DNA of 24,658 nucleotides from a virus: the IMG/VR virus record IMGVR_UViG_3300028548_004170, positions 1 through 24,658 of that record. The stretch is one strand, 5' to 3'. The translations under genes and the position numbers were made by a program. Below, piece by piece: positions 2,938 through 16,175 of the stretch (positions are counted from its first letter, which is position 1; every line of letters begins with the position of its first letter). The notes under the pieces are model-generated. The model was given only the letters and a program-made list of their open reading frames with translations. It did not search any database and was not told the DNA's origin.

Positions 2938-3047
2938 CATTATTTTTCAGAATCAGGTAAGTCATTGTTTTATAAGGATTCTTTTTTTGGATTTTCAACA
3001 TTTTTTATTTCAGTATTTTCAAAAATTGACAGGCGATTCGTTTAAAC

Positions 3048-3078
3048 AAAAAAAGAGGGGCCATAAAGACCCCCCTTT
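3048..3078 (-). terminator. intrinsic terminator of the small transcript
   Basis: Read on the minus strand, arms 3068-3078 and 3052-3062 form an 11-bp stem (with two G-U pairs) closing a 5-base loop at 3063-3067, followed by a T tract. It lies about 60 bases after the stop of the 26-aa ORF at 3138-3218. Confidence 0.8.
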
Positions 3079-3083
3079 GATAA

Positions 3084-3129
3084 TTCACACAACTATTCTA
3101 ATGATGAGATGAGAGGTGTGTTGTGTGAA
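3084..3129. repeat. 10-bp perfect inverted repeat (long hairpin)
   Basis: TTCACACAAC (3084-3093) and GTTGTGTGAA (3120-3129) are exact reverse complements separated by 26 bases. It sits between the 26-aa ORF and the terminator, so it would form a second hairpin in the 3' part of the short transcript. It has no T tract and is not itself a terminator. Confidence 0.6.
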
Positions 3130-3137
3130 CCAAACTG

Positions 3138-3218
3138 TTAACCCACAAATGCGTTTAGGGCAAGAATAATAGTGAACCAACATAAACCTAATGTTGCAGC
3201 TTCAAATAATATTTTCAT
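3138..3218 (-). CDS. 26-aa hydrophobic peptide with its own promoter and terminator
   Basis: The frame reads MKILFEAATLGLCWFTIILA then LNAFVG and stops with TAA. A GAAGG ribosome-binding site lies 7 bases before the ATG. After a short amphipathic start the peptide is one hydrophobic helix. Unlike the other small genes of the window it is not part of a polycistron: a promoter (3253-3281) lies just upstream and a strong terminator (3048-3078) just downstream. It could be a membrane-active peptide, or the ORF could be secondary to a regulatory RNA. Confidence 0.55.
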   Translation of the reverse strand: MKILFEAATLGLCWFTIILALNAFVG

Positions 3219-3252
3219 AATGTAACCTTCTTTGTTTGTAATCAATATAGTT

Positions 3253-3281
3253 ATTGTACTATAAAAAAAGGGGTTTGTCAA
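3253..3281 (-). promoter_or_regulatory. sigma70 promoter whose -35 lies in a terminator loop
   Basis: Minus-strand TTGACA (3276-3281), 17-base spacer, TACAAT (3253-3258); predicted start near 3246, 28 bases before the 26-aa ORF. The -35 hexamer is formed by the tetraloop and top two stem bases of the terminator at 3266-3289. Confidence 0.7.
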
Positions 3282-3289
3282 CCCCTTTT
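3266..3289 (-). terminator. intrinsic terminator of the beta-barrel lipoprotein gene
   Basis: A perfect 10-bp stem AAAAGGGGTT/AACCCCTTTT with a 4-base loop, followed on the minus strand by a run of seven T (three beyond the stem). It lies about 22 bases after the stop codon at 3311. The symmetric A/T ends mean it could also work in the other direction, but no plus-strand gene is there. Confidence 0.8.
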
Positions 3290-9540: not shown

Positions 9541-11355
9541 TTATTTTGGTTGATAAATTGTTATCAATTCTTCTTTACCTTTAACCTTAATTCTATCTAA
9601 TTCTTCACTAGGTATATCAATTAAGTCTTTGGTGTACTGTGAATATAATGTGGTACAATTTGGATAGTTCCTCGTCTGTGCCTCTAATCTTGCAGCTAAG
9701 TTAACTGCATCACCAATAACAGAATAATCAAAACGTGTGGTAGAACCCATGTTACCAACTATACACTCACCAGTATTTACTCCTGAACCTATATTGATAT
9801 CTGGTAATCCTTTTTCCTTAAACTCTGCCTTCATCTTCTCGGTTTCATCTGCACATTCTATAGAAGTTTTGACAGCCATCTGTGCATGATTCTCACAGTC
9901 CAAAGGTGCGTTCCAGAACGCCATGATACAATCTCCCATATACTTATCTACTGTACCACCATTTTTTTGAACTATCTTTGTCATTCTATCTAGGTAATTG
10001 TTTATCACTTCACATAATCCCTCTGGGTCATCATTGTTCTTGTAATGTTCTGATATAGGTGTAAACCCTACTATATCCATAAACAAGAATGACATCTCTT
10101 TTCTTTCCCCACCAAGTTTTAACTTCTCTGGATTCTTCTGTAGAATGGCAACTTGTCTTGGGTCTAGGTAATGTTCAAACTGTTTCTTTATTTGTTGACG
10201 TAATTTGTATTCTTGCATAAATCTTAGGAACGCAGAACTTGACCATGCAATAAATATGGTCAATACAGGCCAACTCCAATCCACTAGATAACTATACTCT
10301 GTAAATAGATATAAACTACCATAGTATGAACCACCTAGAAAAACTGGTAATAATATCATACCATAATACCATCTTAATGTCAAGACCACAATTGTTATGA
10401 TTAATGCAAGTATAAATGAACCACCTAGTTCTGCTAAGTTTGTCCAGTATGGTCTTGTGATATTTCTACCTGACATCATAGTTGCAACAGAAGATGCGAT
10501 TAAGTCATGGTTTTGAATAACTCCAACTGGTGTCGGTACTGGTGCATCTAACCCAGCTGCAGTAAGAGAGAGAATAACAATCTTACCATCTAGTTTTGGT
10601 AGTTCCTCATGTAATGCATAGGTTTCTGTCCTCCACTTAAAGTCTAACCAGATGTTTCCATTCTGGTCTGTCTTAATAATACTGTACTTTGGTATTCGTA
10701 ATGCTTCTACACCTGCAACCCCAGTTTTAATTTGATAACTCACATCTCCAGTCTCAACTCTTAATATCTCCATAGACATAGATGGGTATATCTGGTCGTC
10801 TATTTGTACTGCGAGAGGTGTCCTACGAACCACACCATCTTTCTCTGGTGCAACGATTAACATTCCTACACCGATTGCTGATTCTGCAAACTCTTTGAGT
10901 GGGCCTACTGCTGCAGAATATCTATAGAGCCAAGGTTTCCATGATTCACCTACAGCTGCAACTCCTCTAGTAACTGGATTACCATCTGTTACCTGTGCTG
11001 GTACTTGTCCTATGATTGTGGGTGTCTTTAACAACATGTCTTGGAACTGTGTGTCTTGGTTAAATCTATCTGGTTCTGCAAATAACATAGGAAGAATAAC
11101 TAATCCAGCACCTGACTCATATAACCTATGGATATGATTTGCTAACTCTCCTCTAGGAAATGGCCATTGACCATACTCTGAGAGTGTATCATTATTAATC
11201 TCAATCGTAACTACGTTATCTACGATTTCAGTTTGTTGTTGTCTTTGATGTGAGTCTAGTGCTTTTAATCGTATTACATCTAGTATCCATACATCATAAA
11301 ATCTAATACTACATAATGCAATGATTATGAGTAATGATATAATCCACTTTTTCAT
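9541..11355 (-). CDS. CHASE2-domain membrane adenylate cyclase (class III)
   Basis: This 604-aa protein has an N-terminal span (WIISLLIIIALCSIRF), a CHASE2 extracytoplasmic sensor (about 20-300; VTIEINNDTLSEYGQWPFPR and DLIASSVATMMSGRNITRPY are typical), three more spans (about 305-380), then a class III cyclase domain. All key residues are there: FMDIVGFT (Asp427) and DKYMGD (Asp475) for metals, Lys471 and Asp543 for adenine choice, and NLAARLE (Asn552, Arg556) for the transition state. It should make cAMP from ATP at the inner membrane in response to a periplasmic signal. The ATG at 11355 is preferred (AGGGGA upstream, TAATG overlap with the previous gene); a start at 11385 adds ten unlikely residues. 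It closes the curli-like operon. A cyclase with such a sensor is highly unusual in a phage. Confidence 0.93.
   Translation of the reverse strand: MKKWIISLLIIIALCSIRFYDVWILDVIRLKALDSHQRQQQTEIVDNVVTIEINNDTLSEYGQWPFPRGELANHIHRLYESGAGLVILPMLFAEPDRFNQDTQFQDMLLKTPTIIGQVPAQVTDGNPVTRGVAAVGESWKPWLYRYSAAVGPLKEFAESAIGVGMLIVAPEKDGVVRRTPLAVQIDDQIYPSMSMEILRVETGDVSYQIKTGVAGVEALRIPKYSIIKTDQNGNIWLDFKWRTETYALHEELPKLDGKIVILSLTAAGLDAPVPTPVGVIQNHDLIASSVATMMSGRNITRPYWTNLAELGGSFILALIITIVVLTLRWYYGMILLPVFLGGSYYGSLYLFTEYSYLVDWSWPVLTIFIAWSSSAFLRFMQEYKLRQQIKKQFEHYLDPRQVAILQKNPEKLKLGGERKEMSFLFMDIVGFTPISEHYKNNDDPEGLCEVINNYLDRMTKIVQKNGGTVDKYMGDCIMAFWNAPLDCENHAQMAVKTSIECADETEKMKAEFKEKGLPDINIGSGVNTGECIVGNMGSTTRFDYSVIGDAVNLAARLEAQTRNYPNCTTLYSQYTKDLIDIPSEELDRIKVKGKEELITIYQPK
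10355..10383 (-). promoter_or_regulatory. possible internal promoter within the cyclase gene
   Basis: Minus-strand TTGACA (10378-10383), 17-base spacer, TATGAT (10355-10360) preceded by TGG. Start near 10348, before the cyclase catalytic domain; an in-frame ATG at 10218 (MQEYKLRQQI) would give a soluble cyclase, but its ribosome-binding site is weak. Confidence 0.35.
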
Positions 11356-12815
11356 TAGTTCCCCTGAGTGACTGCTACCGTACAACCTAATGCGTTGGTA
11401 CAGTTATATGTATTTGCATATGACTGTGCAGTACTTCCTTGTTGGTTAAGGTCAAAATCTACAGTATATCCTGATAATGAAACTCTGGCTGCATGATTAC
11501 CACTTCCTTGTTGCATGATATCAATGTCATGTGTTCCAGCACCCTCAACAGTAACATCTAGATAATGAGTTCCAGTATCTTTCTGTAATATATCTATATC
11601 ATTACTATTATTATTCACGTCTAGGAATAGAGTTTTTTGTCCATTATCTCTTTGTGATATATCTATACTATTGGATAGAGCATCAACATCTATAAATGCA
11701 AAATGTTTTGATAATGTTCCACTATCATATTGTTCTAAGTTAACCACATTACTATTTCCATTTAAATCTACAACTGCTTTATGTTCGCCTTGGTCGTTTG
11801 CATGGTCACCCTGAAGAACAGTTAAGTTTATGTTATCTCCATTTATATATAACCCCAATCCATTCTCATCACTACTACCTGAAGTTGTGACGTTACCTTG
11901 TCTTACAGTAAGTGTTACATTATCTCCAGTTATTGTTGAATTTCCAGACCAATCGGTATCTACGATAAAATGAGCATTACCATCTTGTCTTATGTTCGCA
12001 GTAAAGTTTGCACCACTCTGAGTTATACAGACATTACAACCATTCTCCCTATCAGCATTTAGAGCTGCAGTTCGTGTTGTTGTTTGTGCTGATGTTATTG
12101 ATACACCTGTAGCTCTATTAGTAGCATTTTGTTGTAACAGGTCATCTATCAATGCGTCTATAAACTCTGCGTTGTCAGCTGTATAATATGAACCAGATGC
12201 ATGATTAACGTCAGTAATAACAATTACAACACCACCTTGATAATTAGCTGTAAGAGCAGTACCTCTCCACATAGCCACACCTATCTGTCCATCACTATTC
12301 TTAGCAATATACTCACCATCATCTCCAAGATCAGTTATGACACCACCAGCAGCAAAGTTTAAGTATGCCCAATTACCTGGCAAACTTGATAACACATTAG
12401 TATCAGATAGTTGTTCATCATCTCCACTATAACCAATGTATTGAGTGGTACTGTAAGTAATAGTATTATCACCTGTCCATTGTCTTAGTAGAGCTTGTAT
12501 AGAATTATTTCTTGCCCGAAAAGAAGAGTTACTGTTCTCTCCAATAAGAACTACTGTACCATCATTAGCTAATACAGTTTCCATTTTAGTCTCATCACTA
12601 CTTGATATAGCTGTAGTATATCTAAAGTCTATTAGCATCTCATAGGAAGAAATATTTGATGGTAAAGAAGTGCCTACAGTCACATTGTGACTATCAGCTT
12701 CTAGTCTACTCTCCCAACTATTTGCGTGACTACTCTGTTTTACTATTACAGCATCATCAGCATATGATATACTAACGTATAGTAATATCAATAGTATTGT
12801 TATAAGTTGTTTCAT
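11355..12815 (-). CDS. secreted curlin-repeat protein with an N-terminal Rossmann-like domain
   Basis: After a signal peptide (MKQLITILLILLYVSISYA) residues about 40-230 form an alpha/beta domain: YEMLIDFRYTTAISSSDE, TVVLIGENSNSSFRARNNS and GGVVIVITDVNHAS look like a glutamine amidotransferase-like or DUF4350-like Rossmann fold without an evident nucleophilic Cys. From about 260 to the end there are roughly ten imperfect curlin-like repeats of 22-25 residues centred on a beta strand ending in Gln-x-Gly or similar, such as NLTVLQGD, NSIDISQRDNG, NDIDILQKDTG and HDIDIMQQGSG. Two Cys pairs (CNVC, CTNALGC) flank the repeats. It is probably exported by the phage CsgG and could be an amyloid subunit, nucleator or tip protein. 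It overlaps the FecR gene by 44 bases. Confidence 0.8.
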   Translation of the reverse strand: MKQLITILLILLYVSISYADDAVIVKQSSHANSWESRLEADSHNVTVGTSLPSNISSYEMLIDFRYTTAISSSDETKMETVLANDGTVVLIGENSNSSFRARNNSIQALLRQWTGDNTITYSTTQYIGYSGDDEQLSDTNVLSSLPGNWAYLNFAAGGVITDLGDDGEYIAKNSDGQIGVAMWRGTALTANYQGGVVIVITDVNHASGSYYTADNAEFIDALIDDLLQQNATNRATGVSITSAQTTTRTAALNADRENGCNVCITQSGANFTANIRQDGNAHFIVDTDWSGNSTITGDNVTLTVRQGNVTTSGSSDENGLGLYINGDNINLTVLQGDHANDQGEHKAVVDLNGNSNVVNLEQYDSGTLSKHFAFIDVDALSNSIDISQRDNGQKTLFLDVNNNSNDIDILQKDTGTHYLDVTVEGAGTHDIDIMQQGSGNHAARVSLSGYTVDFDLNQQGSTAQSYANTYNCTNALGCTVAVTQGN

Positions 12816-13878
12816 TTGTATAAATCTCTGGGACTACACTACCCTTTTGGTTTATGTTAATTTTATGGCCACCATCTGATTGGTTTATAGTAATATCTAT
12901 ATTACTGTTATCCCACTCTCTTAGTAAAGTAACTTCACCACTTTGTATAATAGTTGTAACAAGAGTGTTTGGATTGTAACCAGCAACTCTACCATCTTTA
13001 TTTGTAAATTTTATTTTTTTATCATATGCTTTATTTAATTCTTCTAATATATTTGCTAAAAAGTTTTGTAGTAAAAAATCTACATCTAAACTTGTGAACC
13101 CTTCGTCTACTTTTTCTTCTAGATAATTCTTATCAATTTCTTTCTTTTCATCCAAAAGATTATCTAATAGTTTTTTCTTTTTATCCTTTTCCTGACTTGC
13201 ACTTTGTTCTTCTTTTTTCTTAGGTGGTCTAATGATTAACATATTATTAATCATACTTTCAGTCAAGTCTAAAATTTTAGGTGGTGTTGGTCTTTGTTCT
13301 CTTGAACCAACTGTTGTTGCTTGAAATGCTCTATTCAATATCACTTGACCAATATCAGACTCTACTGCAATCTCTCCTACAGTTCCATCTACGTTGGGTA
13401 GTAATATGATGAGGGATTGTCCTATCTCATCAACTGTCATACTAAACGCAGTACCACGAACAAGTATCTTTGCTGTTGGTGTCCTGATATCTACGTTCTG
13501 ATTATCGAGATGTGCAATATTACCACTTGCATATCGTACTGTACCAGCTGCAATATTCATTACCAACTTTGATGCAGATGGTGAACTGGGGTCATAGATA
13601 AATTCATCTATCACAAGTTTACTTTGAGGACTTACAGCCACATTGGTATCATCTACAAATGTAATACCAATATTTCCTTTTCCTGTAATCACATTATCTT
13701 TGAACATAATATCCGAGTCTTTCTCAAGGGCAGACTCTTCCCCACCTCTTTCAACAGAGGTTACACCATCTTGTTTTACTACACTACCAATTGCAGCTGC
13801 ATAGAGCAACTGTGGTATGAGTAGTAATAATATACTAAGGCGTAATAATAACATCAATATCTGAACTCGTAGCTCCAT
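12772..13878 (-). CDS. FecR-domain secreted protein with C-terminal curlin-like repeats
   Basis: A long hydrophobic signal sequence ends LLYAAA. Residues about 30-150 form a FecR domain: IGSVVKQDGVTSVERGG, DIMFKDNVITGKGNIGITFV, VDIRTPTAKILVRGTAFSM. A Lys/Glu-rich helical linker follows (about 218-260), and the C-terminus holds two curlin-like units, SNIDITINQSDGG and HKININQKG. FecR domains are periplasmic sensing modules and FecR proteins are often encoded beside CHASE2 proteins in bacteria, so this and the cyclase at 9541-11355 may signal together. The ATG at 13878 is used; a TTG at 13881 and an ATG at 13854 (a shorter signal, overlap of 20 bases) are alternatives, none with a good ribosome-binding site. 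Confidence 0.82.
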   Translation of the reverse strand: MELRVQILMLLLRLSILLLLIPQLLYAAAIGSVVKQDGVTSVERGGEESALEKDSDIMFKDNVITGKGNIGITFVDDTNVAVSPQSKLVIDEFIYDPSSPSASKLVMNIAAGTVRYASGNIAHLDNQNVDIRTPTAKILVRGTAFSMTVDEIGQSLIILLPNVDGTVGEIAVESDIGQVILNRAFQATTVGSREQRPTPPKILDLTESMINNMLIIRPPKKKEEQSASQEKDKKKKLLDNLLDEKKEIDKNYLEEKVDEGFTSLDVDFLLQNFLANILEELNKAYDKKIKFTNKDGRVAGYNPNTLVTTIIQSGEVTLLREWDNSNIDITINQSDGGHKININQKGSVVPEIYTNETTYNNTIDITIR

Positions 13879-14566
13879 CAAATGTCATACTAACTGTAGA
13901 ATCAGTATTTCCACTTTGGTTTACTGTAATATCACTAGCAGCAAATGAACCATTGATATCTAGAAGAGTGTCGTGATTTCCTGAACCTGTGTGGTCTATG
14001 TCGATATCTACATCAGCACTTGATACAGCCATATTGATATTCGTTACTTTTTTATTTGTTCCACTAGCAGTAGAATTTTCTAATACATTAATATCAATAC
14101 CAGCACCTGTCAATACTACATCTATATCAGTATAATCACCAGCACCTGTTGCAGTACCTACAGTATAGAGAGATGTTCCTCCAGCAGCAGATGAATTTCC
14201 AACTCTACTTTCTATAACACTAGTTTGAACACTAAGGTCACCATCAGCACCAATAGCTAAAGTATAAACATTACCAGTACCAGTATTAGTTAAACTTAAT
14301 TCCTCACCACCAGTACCACGAGCAGAATCTCCAGTAACATAGATATCACCAGTTATCGTATTACTGCCCTTTAAATCTACGATAATATCTAAATTTGCAC
14401 CCTCAATTTGTGTTATATCACTAGAAGTACCAACACTACTTCCATCTCCATCTAAGGTAATATCTAAGTCTAAACCACTACCAGATTGATTAATATATAC
14501 TGCATTTTGAGCATGAACCACACTTGTCATAATAAACATAATAATTACAAGTATGAATATTTTCAT
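13835..14566 (-). CDS. secreted curlin-like repeat protein (candidate amyloid subunit)
   Basis: The 243-aa product has a signal peptide (residues 1-19, ending VVHA) and a low-complexity mature part rich in Gly, Ser, Thr, Asp and Asn, with no Cys and little Lys or Arg. Curlin-type units include NAVYINQSGSGLDLDITLDG, SSDITQIEGANLDIIVDLKG, DIDIDHTGSGNHDTLLDING and SDITVNQSGNTDSTVSMTFD, with the typical Ile-x-(Gln/His)-x-Gly core. This composition fits a CsgA/CsgB-like amyloid fibre protein or a beta-solenoid, though the units are less regular than in CsgA. Its start overlaps the csgG stop by 4 bases (ATGA). It is probably the main cargo of the CsgG pore; this is inference. Confidence 0.78.
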   Translation of the reverse strand: MKIFILVIIMFIMTSVVHAQNAVYINQSGSGLDLDITLDGDGSSVGTSSDITQIEGANLDIIVDLKGSNTITGDIYVTGDSARGTGGEELSLTNTGTGNVYTLAIGADGDLSVQTSVIESRVGNSSAAGGTSLYTVGTATGAGDYTDIDVVLTGAGIDINVLENSTASGTNKKVTNINMAVSSADVDIDIDHTGSGNHDTLLDINGSFAASDITVNQSGNTDSTVSMTFDGATSSDIDVIITP

Positions 14567-15402
14567 TTACATTTCTCCCTTTTAAGTAACTTCGGTAAAT
14601 TATGATCACATGGTGGCATTGGAACTGTGTGTACGTCTTTAAATTCCCATAACCCTTTTCTTTCACCCTCCTCAATTAATTCCATAACAGCTGCATCCAT
14701 TGCTTTTCTTACTGCATAGGTTGCCGACTCATTCTCTGTATACCCAATTTCTGTTTCTAACAACTTTGTTCCAGCATCTAAAAATTTAAATACTGTAGCA
14801 GATTGTTGAGCACTCCATATTGTTTTCTCTGTACTAATCGCAAGTAATACTTCTCCAGTTTGTACAGATATTAATCTTATACCTATTGATACAGTATCTT
14901 CTCTAAACTGAGATGATGCACCGATACCTAACATTCTAGCACCTAATCCACCAGTCATAGTATTTGTATCGTATCCTACTATACCACCCTCTATTAAAAC
15001 TCCAGCAAATAATAATGGTGAAATTACATCTTCATCACCAAATGTTTCTCTTGTTTGTCGTATTATCTGTCGTTCTTTTATTAAATTATCAAGAGCTCCT
15101 CTTTCTACTACTTGAAACCATTCACCCCTACCAGCATTTTTCAATGACTGGATTAACCAAATATGTCCACCTTGTGTCACAGCAGTACTTATCAATGCCA
15201 TGTTTTCAGACGGCTTTCTTTGTCCTGTCATATCCGTGAACGAATACACAGCAATCGGCACCTTAACTTTAGGTGGCGTTATTTCCTCTAATTTCTTAAT
15301 GAATATTTTAGGTTGAACTGTTGGGGGGTCTAAAGGAATGGTTGCACACCCAACTAACAAACTAAAACTGGAAATCATTAAGAGGTAAAGTAATTGTTTC
15401 AT
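14563..15402 (-). CDS. csgG: CsgG, curli secretion channel lipoprotein
   Basis: The signal peptide ends SLLVGC (lipobox). The body matches E. coli CsgG throughout: IAVYSFTDMTGQRKP, ISTAVTQGGHIWLIQSLKNA, VVERGALDNLIKERQIIRQT, GVLIEGGIVGYDTNTMTGGL, GARMLGIGASSQFREDTVSI, IRLISVQTGEVLLAISTEKT and LLETEIGYTENES. CsgG forms a nonameric outer-membrane pore that exports curli subunits. The loop that makes the pore constriction (KPYPASNFSTAV in E. coli) reads KPSENMALISTAV here, so the key Tyr is missing and Phe is replaced by Ile. I use the ATG at 15402, which gives a standard signal peptide; ATG 15417 adds five residues. It overlaps csgF by 41 bases. From memory, csgG and csgF occur in some marine myophages. 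Confidence 0.95.
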   Translation of the reverse strand: MKQLLYLLMISSFSLLVGCATIPLDPPTVQPKIFIKKLEEITPPKVKVPIAVYSFTDMTGQRKPSENMALISTAVTQGGHIWLIQSLKNAGRGEWFQVVERGALDNLIKERQIIRQTRETFGDEDVISPLLFAGVLIEGGIVGYDTNTMTGGLGARMLGIGASSQFREDTVSIGIRLISVQTGEVLLAISTEKTIWSAQQSATVFKFLDAGTKLLETEIGYTENESATYAVRKAMDAAVMELIEEGERKGLWEFKDVHTVPMPPCDHNLPKLLKREKCK

Positions 15403-15925
15403 TACCGTCTGGCCCATCTATTTGTAATACTACTTGGTCATTTGCACTATCTTTCGTGTATTTCATTGTTGTTCCGTTAAACGTCATTGTTCCATTACAT
15501 GAAGTTCCACCTGTGTGTCCTTCAACTTCTTGTGCAGTTGGTGCTACTACTGTACCAGCTGTATCTCCACTTGCAACATATGATGTTCCACATGCTTCAC
15601 CAAACATAGCATCTGCTAATTGTTTTGAAAACTCTGCATATATCCTTGATTCAAAATTATCTAAGAACTTTGCAAAATTTGTATTCTTCTTGGCAGCTTC
15701 TATTGATTTCTCTTCAGCAATTCTCTTTGATTTTATTTCTGCTTTTCTTGTAAACTCTTGGTTCTCAATAGTTAAGTAATGAGCACTCGTACCTATACCA
15801 CTAAATGATGGTGATTTATATCTAAACACCAAATCTGTAGCATGTACTTGTGTATGAGCCCATAGTGCTAAAAAAATAGTAATAGACAACAAAAATGCTT
15901 TGGTTCTATTATTTAGATTTTTCAT
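15362..15925 (-). CDS. csgF: CsgF-like curli assembly factor
   Basis: After a signal peptide ending QVHA, the mature N-terminus TDLVFRYKSPSFSGIG closely follows CsgF (TMTFQFRNPNFGG), the very segment that plugs into the CsgG channel. A Lys/Glu-rich helix (QEFTRKAEIKSKRIAEEKSI) and FAKFLDNFESRIYAEFSKQL, similar to CsgF LDNFTQAIQSQIL, come next. The C-terminus has NGTTMKYTKDSANDQVVLQI then ETITLPLNDFQF, like CsgF's last strand. A Gly/Thr-rich insert with two Cys (CGTSY, TSCNG) is unusual. CsgF caps CsgG and couples export to nucleation. The start at ATG 15925 is chosen for the GGGAAAGGCAG site just upstream. At about 187 aa it is longer than E. coli CsgF (138). Confidence 0.88.
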   Translation of the reverse strand: MKNLNNRTKAFLLSITIFLALWAHTQVHATDLVFRYKSPSFSGIGTSAHYLTIENQEFTRKAEIKSKRIAEEKSIEAAKKNTNFAKFLDNFESRIYAEFSKQLADAMFGEACGTSYVASGDTAGTVVAPTAQEVEGHTGGTSCNGTMTFNGTTMKYTKDSANDQVVLQIDGPDGNETITLPLNDFQF

Positions 15926-16175
15926 CTTTCTGCCTTTCCCTTTCCTGTTCATTCAACTCTATAATCGTGTTTATCTTCTGATCTAATCTTATCATATCGT
16001 TGTCGAGCATTCGTATCCTATCAATCAAGGCAATCAATGTTTGCATTGCAGCACCAAGTGTAGGTAAAATCTCAGTTGTAACAAATTTCCAAATGTAGTA
16101 TATGAAATATGACATACCGACAGCGACTACTGTAGGAACACCATACTGGTTTACCAAATCAACTATCTCTTGCAT
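15909..16175 (-). CDS. small TM/coiled-coil protein in the curli operon (second)
   Basis: The 88-aa product has one N-terminal span (VPTVVAVGMSYFIYYIWKFV) and a C-terminal coiled coil (ALIDRIRMLDNDMIRLDQKI, NTIIELNEQERERQ) ending Lys-rich. Topology resembles BhlA/UviB-type small holin-like proteins, and it looks like a diverged paralogue of the gene upstream (shared LIDRIRMLDNDMIRLD / ALDNRVKTMNNEIVRLD). The ATG at 16175 overlaps the upstream stop (TGATG); a TTG at 16178 is possible. Being first in the operon with CsgFG, it may help open or organise the inner membrane. Function not known. Confidence 0.7.
   Translation of the reverse strand: MQEIVDLVNQYGVPTVVAVGMSYFIYYIWKFVTTEILPTLGAAMQTLIALIDRIRMLDNDMIRLDQKINTIIELNEQERERQKDEKSK

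Follow-up and report, generated by a model that had tools for sequence, protein, structure and literature searches.

A conserved phage RNA hairpin outside the catalogued families, linked to interchangeable small hydrophobic ORFs

Sequence comparison identifies a real, conserved and uncatalogued phage RNA hairpin that is attached to exchangeable small hydrophobic open reading frames (ORFs). It was found in a small transcription unit of a 24,658-base IMG/VR virus record, IMGVR_UViG_3300028548_004170, the whole of which we refer to as the window. Our preferred explanation, to which we assign a probability of about one half, is that the hairpin regulates by base pairing through its loop, from the 3′ portion of a short mRNA that encodes a small membrane protein. 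Given its gene content (CsgG and CsgF by Pfam, DUF6433, and a ribonucleotide-reductase region 75% identical to that of Methylophilales phage Melnitz), we place the window phage near the pelagimyophage/Melnitz group of Kyanoviridae, and the hairpin-carrying phages appear to be uncultured marine relatives of the phages of SAR11 and OM43. SAR11 and OM43 are streamlined, abundant bacteria that dominate the surface ocean, and knowledge of regulatory RNA in their phages is scant.

Organization of the unit

The unit occupies window 3281–3045, on the minus strand. A preliminary description of this DNA had proposed a promoter, a 26-codon ORF with a good ribosome-binding site, a 10-bp hairpin with a 26-base loop, and a terminator. 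All of these elements were recovered: the 10-bp stem is exact at 3129–3120/3093–3084 and extends to 13 pairs, and the ribosome-binding site is a Shine–Dalgarno sequence close to the start codon. The features are as follows.

3266–3289, minus strand: terminator hairpin of the upstream operon (AAAAGGGG-TTGACAAA-CCCCTTTTTTT); fold z −4.6; kept in relatives
3253–3281, minus strand: promoter of the small unit, TTGACA-17-TACAAT, −35 at 3281–3276 and −10 at 3258–3253; 11/12 matches; kept in nearly all relatives covering the site
3226–3232, minus strand: Shine–Dalgarno AAGAAGG, 7 nt 5′ of the ATG; kept in relatives with the 26-aa ORF
3138–3218, minus strand: 26-aa hydrophobic ORF (MKILFEAATLGLCWFTIILALNAFVG), one likely membrane helix; 7 distinct variants
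3081–3132, minus strand: conserved hairpin, arms 3132–3120/3093–3081 (13 pairs), loop 3119–3094; covariation
3101–3117, minus strand: nearly invariant loop core, ACCUCUC(AU)CUCAUCAU; sequence comparison
3052–3078, minus strand: intrinsic terminator of the unit (AAAGGGGGGTC...), 11 pairs and then a T-tract; lineage A only
2955–2971, plus strand: motif AGGTAAGTCATTGTTTT; on the sense strand 3′ of the hairpin in lineage B (L016, 2682–2693)

In lineage A the last of these motifs lies downstream of the hairpin but on the opposite strand relative to lineage B. Transcription would start near 3246. The signals expected of a discrete transcript, promoter and terminator, are present and conserved in the sequence. 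Hairpin and terminator together fold with a z of −5.9 against dinucleotide shuffles (0/200), and the whole 202-nt RNA shows a modest folding excess (z −2.3 against shuffles).

Elsewhere in the window, a 614-aa protein (9541–11385, minus strand) carries CHASE2 and adenylate/guanylate cyclase catalytic domains (Pfam E 8e-34 and 1e-17) and is a candidate phage-encoded membrane nucleotide cyclase adjoining curli genes. The block at 12772–15952 (minus strand) encodes a FecR-domain protein, CsgG and CsgF (Pfam), together with two secreted proteins with N/Q-rich repeats that look curlin-like by eye.

Four lineages share the hairpin

A search with the 220-aa gene upstream of the unit returned 21 IMG/VR loci, and the unit was found downstream of that gene in nearly all of those with a long enough contig. 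Loop-pattern scans added further contigs; L192, L262 and L402 were found by scans that fixed short flank and loop pieces only. Loose loop-pattern scans also gave many unrelated matches, which were told apart by the absence of a matching stem. The hairpin occupies the same locus in about 26 other IMG/VR contigs, once per contig and in four lineages, and all sequences that bear it are metagenomic, none coming from an isolate. It is absent from the complete genomes of Mosig, Melnitz and HTVC008M, and GTDB genomes gave just two chance-like pattern matches, in unrelated organisms.

Lineage A, comprising the window and its near relatives, has the 26-aa ORF, the hairpin and a private terminator. The order in lineage B is a 26-aa or 54-aa hydrophobic ORF, the hairpin, a second stem, a GAUGAG strand and the motif AAGUCAUUG, after which comes the next hybrid terminator/promoter (described below). 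Lineage C (L192, L221 and L262) carries a 35-aa hydrophobic ORF and lineage D (L402) a 57-aa ORF. DUF6433 and a 118/120-aa gene recur nearby in lineages C and D, and the locus is therefore syntenic.

The hairpin is a conserved RNA structure

Covariation, which the preliminary description had named as a check, bears the structure out. Across 13 distinct sequences and 13 stem pairs, in an alignment fitted to the model (a procedure that favours the structure), 99.4% of stem cells are paired and 7 of the 13 pairs show two-sided changes. The covariation score is 0.448, compared with 0.239 in shuffles (0/500), and slid-register controls are only 24–38% paired. With 11 lineage A and B sequences aligned by MAFFT in the ordinary way, pairing was 100% and 6 pairs showed two-sided changes. 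Moreover, a covariance model built from lineages A and B finds lineage C (L192 and L262; 45 bits, E 4e-8) and lineage D (L402; 36 bits, E 5e-6); because the scans that had found these three contigs fixed flank and loop pieces only, the stem is independent evidence for both lineages. On this comparative evidence the hairpin exists as an RNA structure, conserved separately from the ORF as expected of a dual-function RNA. The RNA itself is probably functional, because the stem changes in matched pairs while the loop hardly varies. No credible match was found among 4,227 Rfam models at gathering and relaxed thresholds, with no score above the gathering threshold, and neither a tRNA nor a tmRNA was found.

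The loop, ACCUCUC...CUCAUCAU, is nearly invariant, and in lineage A it is unchanged while the stem has varied. Some of this invariance reflects ascertainment, the pattern scans behind lineages C and D having required parts of the loop sequence; loci recovered via the 220-aa gene escape that bias, and their loop is the same. Taken by itself, the stem is compatible with a protein-binding or stability element too. The hairpin could be a cis-acting 3′-end element only, serving mRNA stability, processing or protein binding through the loop, with no pairing in trans. Such a role agrees with the constant position of the hairpin, which at this locus always follows a short ORF and occurs once per contig; if a protein bound the loop, the invariance of the loop on a variable stem would be accounted for. 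On the other side, lineages B, C and D carry a strand complementary to the loop, suggestive of RNA pairing. We regard this as the leading alternative, possible yet distinctly less probable than regulation by loop pairing.

The peptide gene is exchanged while the hairpin stays

The 26-aa ORF shows the codon conservation that the preliminary description had suggested looking for: its seven distinct variants contain no stop or frameshift, keep the Shine–Dalgarno sequence and show no second-codon-position changes, with a pN/pS of 0.29 that rests on 10 variable sites only. This pattern suggests that the ORF is translated. The 26-aa ORF is found in close relatives only, and before the same hairpin it is replaced by three other short hydrophobic ORFs (35, 54 and 57 aa). 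The 26-aa peptide has no tBLASTn match in isolate phages, and neither it nor the 54-aa ORF matches Pfam or PHROGs. In L025, an entericidin-like lipoprotein ORF (MIKFMSILLSVSFVAGCSTVAGVGQDV...; Pfam E 0.008, below the cut-off) lies upstream of the 54-aa ORF in the same unit.

Because the peptide gene is swapped while the hairpin stays, the RNA, and not the 26-aa peptide, is the constant part of the unit. We nevertheless considered whether the peptide is the function, as a membrane-active, toxin-like or superinfection-exclusion factor, with the hairpin incidental. Every lineage has a short hydrophobic ORF at the locus, pN/pS is low for both the 26-aa ORF and the 54-aa ORF (0.35 in the latter), and Mosig and HTVC008M have relatives of the 57-aa ORF without the hairpin. 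However, an incidental hairpin would not give such covariation and loop conservation, and the restriction of the 26-aa ORF to close relatives also counts against this explanation, which we consider unlikely.

The preliminary description had offered a dual-function RNA, a regulatory small RNA and a membrane-active peptide as alternatives. Close relatives retain both ORF and hairpin, and the hairpin reaches much further than the ORF, which supports the two RNA options; the peptide as main function is weakened, because other hydrophobic ORFs take the place of the 26-aa ORF while the hairpin stays.

The loop has a complementary strand in three lineages

Downstream of the hairpin on the same transcript, lineages B, C and D carry a strand (the GAUGAG element) with 7–10 nt of complementarity to the loop:

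AUGAUGAGGU, 10 nt: L014 and L016 (lineage B)
AUGAUGAGA, 9 nt: L262 (lineage C)
AUGAUGAG, 8 nt: L402 (lineage D)

One loop/partner position covaries, being C–G in lineage B and U–A in lineage C. Single matches are modest against shuffles (0 to 46 of 500) and the partners lie at differing distances, so we argue for cis pairing from its recurrence in separate lineages. The loop and the downstream strand would form a pseudoknot or kissing-loop in these three lineages. Lineage A has no comparable GAUGAG strand downstream of the hairpin. Retention of the loop after apparent loss of its cis partner in the lineage of the window implies that the loop is put to other use.

A further possibility is a cis switch, in which the loop, by pairing with a leader or with the 5′ arm of the terminator that follows, controls read-through into the downstream gene. 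Duplex predictions do join the loop to the GAUGAG strand and to an AGAGGGG terminator arm in lineage B. Yet the energy does not exceed that of shuffles in lineage C (59–60/200), the terminator hairpin is far stronger, and lineage A has no GAUGAG strand 3′ of the hairpin; such a switch is improbable, more so than a peptide function.

Candidate targets of the loop in trans

No conserved trans target was found within the 24.7 kb of phage DNA that the window covers. The loop paired with the gene leaders of the window no better than shuffled loops did (99/200), and on this ground a general anti-Shine–Dalgarno role was rejected; the leader sets of lineages B and B2 showed weak enrichment (10/200 and 6/200). 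The best specific site is an 8-nt match, CACCUCUC:GAGAGGUG, at the Shine–Dalgarno sequence of a cell-wall hydrolase gene (588–1100; Pfam Hydrolase_2). It is the only 8-nt loop match over a Shine–Dalgarno sequence in the window, and the leader is unchanged in lineages A and B and in L414. A trans-acting RNA silencing phage mRNAs, this one in particular, would have a precedent in PAK_P4as15, a phage RNA proposed to delay endolysin synthesis (PMC12197685). However, lineage C (L413 and L262) and L052 have lost the site although they keep the loop, and conservation of the site elsewhere is otherwise explained, because it lies within the preceding coding sequence. The hydrolase leader was accordingly rejected as a target, and silencing by the loop is largely refuted, the least probable of the explanations that we weighed.

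A hybrid terminator/promoter precedes the unit

The −35 element of the promoter sits inside the terminator hairpin of the upstream operon (3289–3266), an arrangement that the preliminary description had missed. Promoter-like matches occur in the window at chance level (45 versus 38; 70 versus 77), so the promoter call rests on conservation in relatives and on the hybrid design. The claim that this is the sole unit with its own consensus promoter and strong terminator and without a long gene was roughly right: the only second strong GC-rich hairpin with a T-tract is that of the upstream operon, and the other terminator-like sites in the window are weak and near shuffle expectation. In L041, TTGACA is present and the terminator arms are absent.

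More than 119 viral sequence stretches contain the exact hybrid pattern GGGGTTGACANACCCCYTTTTTT, and 88 of 89 distinct sites examined (among L300–L401) have a −10-like hexamer 17–19 nt past it; similar elements in Enterococcus, Klebsiella, Staphylococcus and Synechococcus phages surfaced in BLAST searches. The hybrid is widespread in phage DNA and may serve as a general compact control element; no published description of it was found in the literature searched, a weak sign of novelty. In many hybrid elements of another phage group (L302, L306, L308 and others), a conserved GATAAATAATAGCTCATAA follows, perhaps as a second conserved leader or an overlapping late promoter. The next promoter in the window (2936–2909) matches the consensus at 12/12 positions, and over its −35 lies a perfect 7-bp inverted repeat, GTTTGAC-N6-GTCAAAC (2919–2938), which lineage A keeps and which could be an operator.

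Because the promoter of the small unit is of the sigma70 type, early expression is plausible, as the preliminary description had suggested. In the related phage Melnitz, promoters of this type were assigned to early expression (PMC9004378).

Proposed mode of action

Pairing through the loop is the best-supported candidate mechanism. We propose that host sigma70 RNA polymerase would transcribe the unit from the hybrid terminator/promoter and that the peptide would be translated. In lineage A, the cis partner and second stem may have been replaced by the private terminator, and the resulting RNA of about 200 nt, with its exposed pyrimidine loop, may pair in trans with phage or host RNA as a dual-function mRNA and small RNA. 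More tentatively, and with lower confidence than in loop pairing as such, the hairpin may define a new phage RNA family in which a constant loop-pairing hairpin is combined with interchangeable small membrane-protein genes and in which loss of the cis partner in the lineage of the window yielded a free trans-acting RNA. The hairpin offers an RNA family concrete enough to align and to describe by a covariance model; its loop residues are well defined, and the presence or loss of the cis partner amounts to a natural experiment.

Comparison with known systems

Like type I toxin peptides of the Ibs, TisB and DinQ class, the unit is predicted to give a small structured mRNA that encodes a short hydrophobic peptide. 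Unlike those systems, it has no opposing antisense promoter stronger than 9/12; plus-strand promoter-like matches within it are weak only, in a simple consensus scan that could miss an antisense RNA. Dual-function small RNAs such as SgrS, RNAIII and SR1 combine a small mRNA with a base-pairing RNA. The unit resembles them in its predicted short transcript, bounded by a dedicated promoter and terminator, which combines a small ORF with a separate conserved hairpin whose exposed loop is pyrimidine-rich; it differs in that its ORF is exchangeable between lineages and that the window yielded no conserved target for it. Small RNAs encoded by phages have been reviewed, among them PreS of lambda, PAK_P4as15, CfrI, sar and c4 (PMC12197685). 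As with these, the present RNA is small, phage-encoded and presumably acts by pairing, but it matches no Rfam family in sequence or structure and is not antisense to a neighbouring gene. Finally, structured RNA motifs are known from marine phages and cyanophages, namely manA, wcaG and the glutamine riboswitch (PMC2864571, PMC9004378). Like them, the hairpin is a structured RNA of T4-like marine phages; whereas those motifs are mRNA-leader or tmRNA-linked elements, it lies 3′ of a short ORF, before the terminator.
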